Below, piece by piece: positions 1,854 to 37,562 of a DNA stretch of 41,011 nucleotides. How positions within the stretch are numbered: the stretch's first letter is position 1; each line of letters starts with the position of its first letter. This stretch comes from Deltaproteobacteria bacterium (GTDB lineage Bacteria; UBA10199; SBBF01): the NCBI GenBank assembly GCA_016183175.1, contig JACPFC010000007.1, positions 1 through 41,011 of the forward strand, in the 5' to 3' direction. The translations under genes and the position numbers were made by a program. The notes beneath the pieces are model-generated. The model saw only the letters and a program-made list of their open reading frames with translations. It had not been told where the DNA came from and ran no database searches.

Positions 1854-3034
1854 TAACCGGGATTGACCCGTACTTCCCCTTCAAGATTTCCCGTCTCACT
1901 AATCTCCTCGGCGCGCACGATTCCGTTTTCAACGACAAACCGGTATTTTCCCCAGACCACCGTGCGTTGAAAATAGCCCGCCAGCCACACAAAAGGGAAA
2001 AGAAGGTCGGCGATCAGAACCGAGAAGAAGTAGAGAAAAGGAATGCCTTGCCGATAGATAACCCGATCGAGAAAAGAAGGCATGACGGTTCGATAAGCAA
2101 TCACCATCAGCAACATTCCCCACGAATAAGGGCTTCCCGGCTCCAAAAACAAAAGAAGGAGGGCAAACAGGGACTGGCAGGTCAAAATAAAAAAATGATA
2201 CGCAACAGGAGAGGCGACACGAACCGCCACCATCCACCGGAGAGTATGCCCCGCATGGCCGATGATGCCCTGGTTTCTTTCGTGCGTCCGGATGAGATAC
2301 GGGGCCACTCGGGTCTTGTACCCCGCCAATGCGAAAAGTTTGGCCAGTTCCTGGTCGGTCGTCAGTTTGCGGGCAATCGCCTTGAACCCCCCTGTTTTCA
2401 GATAGGCCTCGCGGCGGAAGGCCATGGCCGGGCCAATCCCCACGGGAGTCAGATATTGAAACAAGACGTCCACGAGCGGAATCATCAGATTGTAGGTGAG
2501 CGTATTGGCATACCCCGCCCATCCCCTGGCTCCCACCATCAAGGGAACCGCCGACACAAGGCCAACGCGCCTGTCTTCCAGCGGTTTGATCAGTTGACGG
2601 ATATAGTCGGGCGTAGCAATGGTGTCGCTGTCGCTCAAGACAAGAATCTCCCCCGAGGCCTCCAAAAAGGCATTGTAAAAGTTGCAGACCTGCCTGTTGG
2701 GGCCCAATTGCGAGGGCCTGACGACAAGTTTTATGGGACAGTGGGGATGATTGTCCATGAAACGTTTCAGGAGGGGAATCGCCGGATCGTCGCCGTCCAG
2801 AACGGACAGAATCAACTCATAATGGGGGTAATCGATCCGCGTGAAACTTTCGAGATTTTCGGCCAACCCCTCTTCAACGCCGTAAAAGATCTTCAGGATG
2901 GAAACACGGGGGGAAAAAACGGTTTCCTTTATTTTTCGGCGGCGGAAAAAAAAGAGAAAATTTGCAAAGGCGACAGACCAGGCAAAAAGATTCACCAGAA
3001 TGAGGGAGAAAAGGATTTGGGAGGGGGACAGCAT
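1844..3034 (-). CDS. HpnI-like / ceramide-glucosyltransferase-type GT2 glycosyltransferase
   Basis: 396 aa from the ATG at 3034; a TTG at 3082 would add 16 residues. One N-terminal membrane helix (about 4-30) is followed by a GT-A domain: the nucleotide-binding DSD is at 135-137, TTDQEL at 225-230, and HTLRW at 263-267 stands at the place of the (Q/R)xxRW motif of processive lipid glycosyltransferases, with His instead of Gln or Arg. About three hydrophobic helices follow (275-355). The layout matches family GT21 and the hopanoid-associated HpnI, which adds a sugar to a lipid at the inner membrane. The squalene genes hpnCDE are 24 kb away and no squalene-hopene cyclase is seen here, so a hopanoid substrate is only an inference. 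The last codons lie in the 21-bp direct repeat. Confidence 0.8.
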   Translation of the reverse strand: MLSPSQILFSLILVNLFAWSVAFANFLFFFRRRKIKETVFSPRVSILKIFYGVEEGLAENLESFTRIDYPHYELILSVLDGDDPAIPLLKRFMDNHPHCPIKLVVRPSQLGPNRQVCNFYNAFLEASGEILVLSDSDTIATPDYIRQLIKPLEDRRVGLVSAVPLMVGARGWAGYANTLTYNLMIPLVDVLFQYLTPVGIGPAMAFRREAYLKTGGFKAIARKLTTDQELAKLFALAGYKTRVAPYLIRTHERNQGIIGHAGHTLRWMVAVRVASPVAYHFFILTCQSLFALLLLFLEPGSPYSWGMLLMVIAYRTVMPSFLDRVIYRQGIPFLYFFSVLIADLLFPFVWLAGYFQRTVVWGKYRFVVENGIVRAEEISETGNLEGEVRVNPGYVP

Positions 3035-3114
3035 GAATCGAAAAATTGGTGCGATTCGACCACACCAGGCGGGCTTAGTCAAAGGATAAAAAAATTAATA
3101 AATTCAAGCCCTGT

Positions 3115-3201
3115 TTATTTCCGGAAAATTTTCGGCTTCAATTTTTTTGCCTCGGCAATAAAAAAATGCTGCCAGTCGCTGTCGTTGAGTTTTACAATCA
3201 T
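3115..3201 (-). other. Possible 28-codon remnant ORF upstream of the glycosyltransferase
   Basis: A short minus-strand frame from ATG 3201 reads MIVKLNDSDWQHFF and ends KPKIFRK. It looks protein-like but is too short to assign. It may be a fragment of a decayed gene in the gap 3083-3303. No ribosome site is evident. Confidence 0.25.
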
Positions 3202-33060: not shown

Positions 33061-33192
33061 TCGCAAACAAAGAGAGTCCCTTTGTCTTCACAATTTTCGT
33101 AAGCCGCTCTGGTTTAGATTGTCTCGCCGGCAGATGTCGCTGGCGGGAACGAAAATTGCTCCGTCAAAAGGACTCTCTTTGTTTGCTCGCGA
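33061..33192. mobile_element. MITE/REP-like palindromic element
   Basis: The left arm AAACAAAGAGAGTCC and right arm GGACTCTCTTTGTTT are exact complements; further in, CAATTTTCGT pairs with ACGAAAATTG. The outer ends TCGC and GCGA also match, with four bases missing on the left. The middle is about 40 bases with its own GCCGG/CTGGCGGG-type pairing. It has no coding capacity. It lies 30 bases upstream of the CorC-like gene start. Confidence 0.65.
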
Positions 33193-35022: not shown

Positions 35023-36746
<1,724 letters not shown>

Positions 36747-36848
36747 AGGACTTTCTCCTTTTCTTCAATTTTTTGTGAAAGACAAATAAACACACCACCC
36801 CTTTAAGGGACTACCCTCCTCCAGATTGGGGAGAGGGGAGCAAGTTCT

Positions 36849-37562
36849 GTGCCAAATACAGAAAAGAGTCAACTCCATAATTTGGCTTCCGATTTAATTT
36901 TAGACAGATGGATTCAAGAGACCAAGATTTATGCACCTGCCGAATATTTGGGCATTCGCTCTTTCGATTTGATCGCGGCATATCGTCGTGTTATGCCAAA
37001 ACTTAAAATGGCTCACATTATTATTGACGGTTACAACCTGATCCGCCGCTCACATTCGTTGAGCCGGGCGGAGGCGGTTGACTTGGAGCGCGGACGGCTG
37101 GAGCTTTTGAAAAAACTTGCCGCTTGGCGGCAGACAAAGCATCACGCCGTCACCGTGGTGTTTGACGCAGGGGAGACGTTAAACCTTTCGGTTGAAGAGG
37201 ATCGCTTTGCCGGAATTCGCATCCTCTACAGCAAGGGAGGCCAGACCGCCGACAGCGTAATGATTGATCTCGCCCGGAAATTAAGGGAGCAGGCGATTGT
37301 CGTCAGTTCCGACAATGAAATTTTGCAGGCCGCCAAGAGGTCCGGATGTTCTTTCCTTTTGGCGGAGGAATTTGAACGGAAATTGAATGCCGTAGGGGCG
37401 TCCGCCAATAAGTCGTGGCGGACGCCCCTACCAGAAACGGATCGAGACAGACCGGACGAAAACCGCCCCCTCAACAAGCGATGGATGACGATGAAAAAAG
37501 GCCCCGCTAAAAGACTTCCAAAAGCAAAAAGAAGGGCAATGGCGCGGTTGCGGGATTTATAG
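36849..37562 (+). CDS. YacP-type NYN-domain ribonuclease with N-terminal extension and internal palindrome
   Basis: 237 aa. The NYN/PIN-like core starts at MAHIIIDGYNLIRRS (residues 54-68) and has VVFDAGE, GGQTADSVMIDLA and VVSSDNEI, the family's acidic active site. YacP homologues normally begin at that Met; here GTG 36849 with GGGGAG eight bases before it adds 53 residues that look like protein (SDLILDRWIQ, YLGIRSFDLIAAYR) but match nothing I know. A start at 37008 has no ribosome site. Near the end, a perfect palindrome (37392-37431) is read in frame as AVGASANKSWRTP and is followed by a Lys/Arg-rich tail. It is divergent from amt. Confidence 0.75.
   Translation: MPNTEKSQLHNLASDLILDRWIQETKIYAPAEYLGIRSFDLIAAYRRVMPKLKMAHIIIDGYNLIRRSHSLSRAEAVDLERGRLELLKKLAAWRQTKHHAVTVVFDAGETLNLSVEEDRFAGIRILYSKGGQTADSVMIDLARKLREQAIVVSSDNEILQAAKRSGCSFLLAEEFERKLNAVGASANKSWRTPLPETDRDRPDENRPLNKRWMTMKKGPAKRLPKAKRRAMARLRDL
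37392..37431. repeat. REP-like perfect inverted repeat inside the NYN gene
   Basis: GTAGGGGCGTCCGCCA and TGGCGGACGCCCCTAC are exact 16-bp complements around eight bases. It keeps the host frame open. Confidence 0.9.

Follow-up and report, generated by a model that had tools for sequence, protein, structure and literature searches.

The window analysed here, i.e., the whole stretch of 41,011 nucleotides of contig JACPFC010000007.1 from a Deltaproteobacteria bacterium, contains an open reading frame (36849–37562, forward strand) of 237 aa, whose residues 57–192 match the YacP-like NYN domain PF05991 (E 1.6e-28) with 100.2 bits, exceeding the gathering score of 24.6 of that family. The first-pass annotation of this frame as an NYN ribonuclease gene is therefore borne out at the family level, and ribonuclease activity is predicted for its product. 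YacP-type NYN RNases, which we take to be the enzymes named Rae1, have in common with the window protein both the PF05991 domain and a basic C-terminal tail, whereas the linker between these parts is in the window protein encoded by an in-frame palindrome. The gene, referred to here as yacP, is preceded by a divergent gene for an ammonium transporter, presumably amt (Table 1).

Table 1. Features of the yacP–amt region, in positions of the window.
Feature	Position	Strand	Remarks
amt ammonium transporter gene (presumed name), divergent neighbour	35376..36746	-	orthologues 93% (G002) and 81% (G005) identical
Sigma-54 -24/-12 promoter match before amt, TGGCACAGAACTTGCT	36839..36854	-	claimed GTG start lies inside the -24 box
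Claimed 53-residue N-terminal extension	36849..37007	+	no homologue; overlaps amt upstream region; probably not translated
YacP-like NYN ribonuclease gene, probable true extent	37008..37562	+	ATG at 37008, 184 aa; PF05991
In-frame 40-bp palindrome, ends GTAGGGGCG/CGCCCCTAC, encodes VGASANKSWRTPL	37392..37431	+	near-identical copies in murF, comEC
Palindrome left arm	37392..37407	+	perfect 16-nt inverted repeat
Palindrome loop, 8 nt	37408..37415	+	inverted repeat, RNA fold
Palindrome right arm	37416..37431	+	perfect 16-nt inverted repeat
Remaining linker and basic C-terminal helix of yacP	37432..37559	+	synonymous identity to G002 unusually high

The two arms of the palindrome are 100% complementary. 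With loops of up to 20 allowed, no perfect arm of the window exceeds these 16 nt, compared to a maximum of 9–14 in 12 first-order random versions, which rules out a chance palindrome, and the predicted RNA hairpin reaches -36.3 kcal/mol (z -7.5), a value that 0 of 200 shuffles equalled. The element lies in frame close to the end of the NYN domain, in a frame devoid of stops that is read as VGASANKSWRTPL(P), and two more near-identical copies, located in murF (C96) and comEC (C106), are also in frame. The earlier description of a 16-bp perfect palindrome of the REP type in the coding frame, adding about 13 residues, agrees with these 16-nt arms, the multiple copies and the open frame. As the open frames suggest, the insert is probably translated together with the rest of the protein; a separate function of the added residues is improbable. 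In an AlphaFold model of modest mean pLDDT (71.6, with 3 sequences in the input), the insert begins where a helix ends and extends into a stretch with pLDDT below 50 (residues 132–166) that separates the NYN domain from the C-terminal helix. Thus, the model points to a linker between the nuclease domain and the basic helix that is probably disordered.

The window copy is a member of a family of repeats whose ends, GTAGGGGC/GCCCCTAC, are constant, while the core varies and is palindromic in most cases. Strict copies, defined by the pattern GTAGGGGCN{4,34}GCCCCTAC, amount to 10 in this genome (G000), 37 in a sister genus (G002), 19 in another family of the same order (G005), 16 in G006, two each in G001 and G004, and none in G003 and G007, all of these genomes being draft assemblies; the reversed pattern, used as control, occurred once in G007 and not at all in the other seven genomes. 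Within the class, the strict pattern is found in 20 of 46 genomes, with a patchy distribution and core types particular to each genome. Most copies of G002 are 28-mers (33 among the loci examined, 24 of them perfect palindromes), and one 28-mer core is present in 8 copies in that genome. Since identical cores occur at unrelated loci within one genome, cores appear to spread as blocks; moreover, the fact that they form local subfamilies repeated within each genome speaks against the same palindrome having been inherited vertically and then drifting. Both the 28-mers and the window copy have their GTAG paired with CTAC at the opposite end. The copies in uvrC and pcrA of G000 are dimers of the form GTAG-stem-stem-CTAC, with GTAG outside each stem, and at 46–59 bp dimers are longer than the 40-bp window copy. 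A search of the literature, partial in coverage, for GTAGGGGCG or TAGGGGC in connection with palindromes returned nothing relevant among the matches listed.

At least 16 of the 37 copies in G002 (over 40%) are internal to, and in frame with, genes recognised by Pfam or NCBIfam, including pheS, trmD, truA (twice), recG, prmA, purH, uvrC, ctaA, and yacP; this count omits a copy in a 98-aa frame (locus L101) and becomes 17 if it is included. Four of the 10 strict copies of G000 are likewise internal (yacP, nuoM, pcrA, and uvrC), and further internal copies are those of comEC and murF mentioned above and a degenerate one in a radical-SAM gene. No frame-breaking internal insertion was seen among the copies inspected, and the intact frames suggest that the host proteins are functional. 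The trmD gene provides an empty state for comparison, as 7 of 8 genomes have a short linker without insert, while the insert is found only in G002 with a net gain of 18 bp, so that approximately 10 bp of linker would have been exchanged for 28. Among the non-internal strict copies of G000 and G002 together, 13 of 27 terminate an open frame of at least 100 aa exactly at the TAG of the element itself. As a separate observation, uvrC of G002 (L119) seems to be frame-broken near its 3' end, with two overlapping matches, owing either to an assembly error or to a real change.

The linker that harbours the palindrome in yacP is also occupied in relatives. At codon boundaries identical to those of the window copy, yacP of G002 carries GTAGGGGCGTACAGCGGTACGCCCCTAC, which is 12 bp shorter, and a degenerate palindrome lies in the same linker of G005. 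Hence, the expectation that close orthologues would lack the insert holds for those of G001, G004, and G006, which have no palindrome, and fails for G002 and G005; the G003 and G007 sequences showed none either. In uvrC, the linker contains a 48-bp dimer in G000, different 28-mers in G001 and G002, and another palindrome type in G005, with no palindrome in G003, G004, G006, and G007. At the second site of truA (aligned in 7 of 8 genomes, with no match in G003), palindromes are found in G001 and G002 with the same left boundary, a degenerate one in G005 and another type in G000, while in murF (7 of 8 genomes aligned, G003 being left out) those of G000 and G002 share identical boundaries and G005 has another type. 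In the radical-SAM gene (2 of 8 genomes aligned), the palindromes of G000 and G002 lie within one nucleotide of each other in different reading frames. Moreover, a convergent intergenic site (C4 in G000, L103 in G002) holds different palindromes in the two genomes, whose ends give both stop codons in both cases, those on the G000 side having been read by eye. Different palindromes with identical boundaries thus amount to three cases, namely yacP, murF, and one intergenic site. Overall, of 14 elements of G000 compared with 36 loci of G002, 6 are matched by a palindrome in the corresponding gene or gene end of G002, in every case with a different core. Insertion at the identical site in every case is ruled out by the different boundaries in uvrC and frames in the radical-SAM gene, and is also contradicted by C116 and L101, where the palindromes lie at separate positions within one gene end. 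Other palindrome types, of the forms AATCCCCCTT..AAGGGGGATT and CCCTCCCCC..GGGGGAGGG, were seen in truA of G000 (L127), uvrC of G005 (L121), and murF of G005 (L138), so at least two further types seem to insert in frame in these same linkers.

The part of yacP downstream of the element is unusually similar in G000 and G002 at the level of synonymous codons, with 29 of 35 identical in the tail (33 of 39 including the 4 codons preceding the element) versus 41 of 86 for the body of the gene; among 15 pairs compared, only this pair shows such an increase. A recombined tract common to both genomes (window 37380–37562 against L007 of G002) is one possible explanation of this pattern.

The GTAG REPs are the closest point of comparison. 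In Di Nocera 2013 (PMC3733652), these are described as stem-loops of 20–40 bp with GTAG termini that form head-head dimers, whose termini can supply TAG stops, whose copies are also found inside genes, and whose target genes include those for repair and tRNA modification. The present family resembles them in each of these respects, being dispersed and multi-copy, with a window copy within the 20–40 bp range, GTAG termini, head-head dimers, TAG-supplying ends, intragenic copies, and repair and tRNA-modification genes among its targets. However, GTAG REPs carry an unpaired tag at one end, whereas single copies of the present family are symmetric; because this one-end tag is missing from single copies, the family is not strictly assigned to GTAG REPs. 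Furthermore, GTAG REPs are mostly extragenic, in contrast to the internal share found in G002, and the same source (PMC3733652) reports a single instance of different REPs occupying approximately one site, in recB of two Xanthomonas, whereas different cores share a site here in at least five genes and an intergenic site. The Rickettsia palindromic elements (RPE), as characterised there (PMC3733652), are palindromes in frame within functional protein genes, and the intragenic repeats of R. conorii are of the CGTC type or the longer RPE-1. The likeness to palindromes inside Rickettsia genes proposed in the first-pass annotation is supported by in-frame palindromes in murF, uvrC, pheS, trmD, truA, and others, whose products are predicted to be functional, although sequence and lineage appear to set the present family apart. 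The palindromes resemble both intragenic REPs and RPEs and are strictly neither. Palindromes that encode protein are known; the distinctive traits here are the symmetric ends, the very high intragenic share, and the repeated use of the same linkers.

RAYT/Y1 transposases (PF01797) are the likely class of mobilising enzyme. C5 of G006 (L060) bears two RAYT-like Y1-transposase frames (1468–2175 and 2596–3186, minus strand), both containing the same in-frame dimer of the present palindrome type, read as VGATPRGCPNNGQAQGPAPT, so that in G006 the element may sit within its own mobiliser. In contrast to such systems, the genome analysed here has a single trace of a Y1 transposase, a fragment (C116:13689-13835, covering 54 of 121 profile positions, approximately 730 bp from a palindrome), and no Y1 transposase was found in G002, whose genome is 84% complete.

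Taken together, the locus is very probably explained by a mobile, GTAG-REP-like palindrome that occupies a tolerant linker of yacP through recurrent insertion or replacement, the supposed extension being the sigma-54 promoter region of amt. An element with ends GTAGGGGC...GCCCCTAC and a core differing among copies would have inserted into the yacP frame at the low-confidence linker, and would have survived there because it altered the length of the gene by a net multiple of three, its frame is free of stops, and the linker is tolerant. In general, insertions would be filtered for net multiples of three, for a frame without TAG, and for flexible linkers; the scarcity of tolerant protein sites, combined with a high insertion pressure, would then lead to the same linkers being refilled in relatives. 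As each site holds the repeated core of its own genome, arrival after divergence is likelier than drift. Against this explanation count the fragmentary state or absence of the Y1 transposase in G000 and G002, the pairing of GTAG with CTAC in single elements, and the identical boundaries, which are more frequent than simple re-insertion predicts; in those cases, an exchange of palindromes at a site already occupied probably plays a part. In its full form, this idea posits one ancestral palindrome per site, whose core later gave way to those of local subfamily members through conversion or transposase-mediated exchange via the shared ends. Such core swapping would account for the unrelated cores within identical boundaries in yacP and murF, for the stop codons supplied by both ends at the convergent site, for the common left boundary at the second truA site, and for the synonymous identity of the element and yacP tail, far above that of the body in G000 and G002 only. 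It is nevertheless a less likely, if possible, general account, given that the copies in uvrC and in the radical-SAM gene do not agree in boundary or frame, that the shared ends of 8–9 bp are short for homologous conversion, and that no intermediate was observed. Still more tentatively, housekeeping genes could be regarded as containing fixed docking sites for exchangeable palindrome cassettes, in which the GTAGGGGC/GCCCCTAC ends remain fixed while core and peptide are swapped as a block; if so, orthologues in sister genera would bear different linker peptides drawn from the palindrome repertoire of each genome.

A hairpin maintained for a conserved role in mRNA stability, translation pausing, or DNA topology, with its core drifting under compensatory selection, would fit the strong RNA hairpins predicted for both the G000 and G002 versions of yacP and the many elements that supply a TAG stop at gene ends; yet it is improbable, because cores recur exactly at unrelated loci of a genome, lengths vary (28, 40 and 59 bp), and many orthologues have no hairpin. 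An assembly artefact, conceivable in draft genomes, is hardly credible when separate assemblies share the family at the same sites with different cores and the frames of essential genes stay open. Under the mobile-element explanation, an uncultured groundwater-associated lineage joins those with the rare protein-coding palindromes (Rickettsia RPEs and intragenic REPs), which here reach high density and enter essential genes. Since the same linkers are hit repeatedly in related genera, they represent natural replicates, so that comparing or swapping linkers offers a direct test of whether the inserts are noise that is tolerated or give rise to change in proteins. For annotation, short repeated peptides such as VGAxxxxPL and RGxxxxAPT in these proteins call for caution, as they would be translated palindromes.

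The upstream part of the frame was originally interpreted as a coding extension of 53 residues with the only good ribosome site, and neither part of this claim is supported. Orthologues of yacP were found in 23 of 60 relatives, with alignments that begin at about Met 37008 and never upstream of it; this Met is the start of the orthologues, several of which likewise lack a clear ribosome site by eye, and translation most likely starts at ATG 37008. Position 36839–36854 on the minus strand is a perfect match to TGGCACN5TTGCW, which we take to be the sigma-54 -24/-12 consensus, 93 nt before amt, and the claimed GTG start (36849), together with the G-rich sequence leading up to it, overlaps this match on the opposite strand. 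One-mismatch matches lie 92 nt before amt in G002 (TGGCATGAAACTTGCT) and 72 nt before it in G005 (TGGCATAATGTTTGCT). Matches with one mismatch are expected by chance at approximately 0.5–1 per locus (means 1.01, 0.48, and 0.63), and the case for a promoter thus depends on where the match lies, how it is oriented, and its conservation. The DNA flanking the match aligns with the amt upstream region of G002, where yacP is more than 2 kb away from that amt, behind a second glnK-amt pair. The supposed ribosome site therefore most likely belongs to the divergent amt operon, as part of its putative sigma-54 promoter. A genuine lineage-specific N-terminus could be argued from the 67 codons open upstream of the family ATG (chance probability of about 0.04) and from the G-rich leader before the GTG; it is very unlikely in view of the location of the GTG within the -24 box, the position of the homologous G002 DNA, and the lack of any peptide similar to residues 1–53 in 45 relatives (beyond the protein itself, with other matches at E 0.05 or worse), in plasmid proteins, or in NCBIfam. 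These same searches also discard an antitoxin or a fused domain. The extension is very probably not protein, in a frame that would be open by chance within the promoter region. As a further caution for annotation, a GTG start predicted between divergent genes can turn out to be a promoter box. Two minor observations concern the surroundings: the extra glnK-amt pair between amt and yacP in G002 (L039, 3640–5836) is missing here (window 36746–37008), and an imperfect inverted repeat with 38-nt arms, 84% complementary and 48 nt apart, is located at 33063–33186, past the 3' end of a glnA-like gene.
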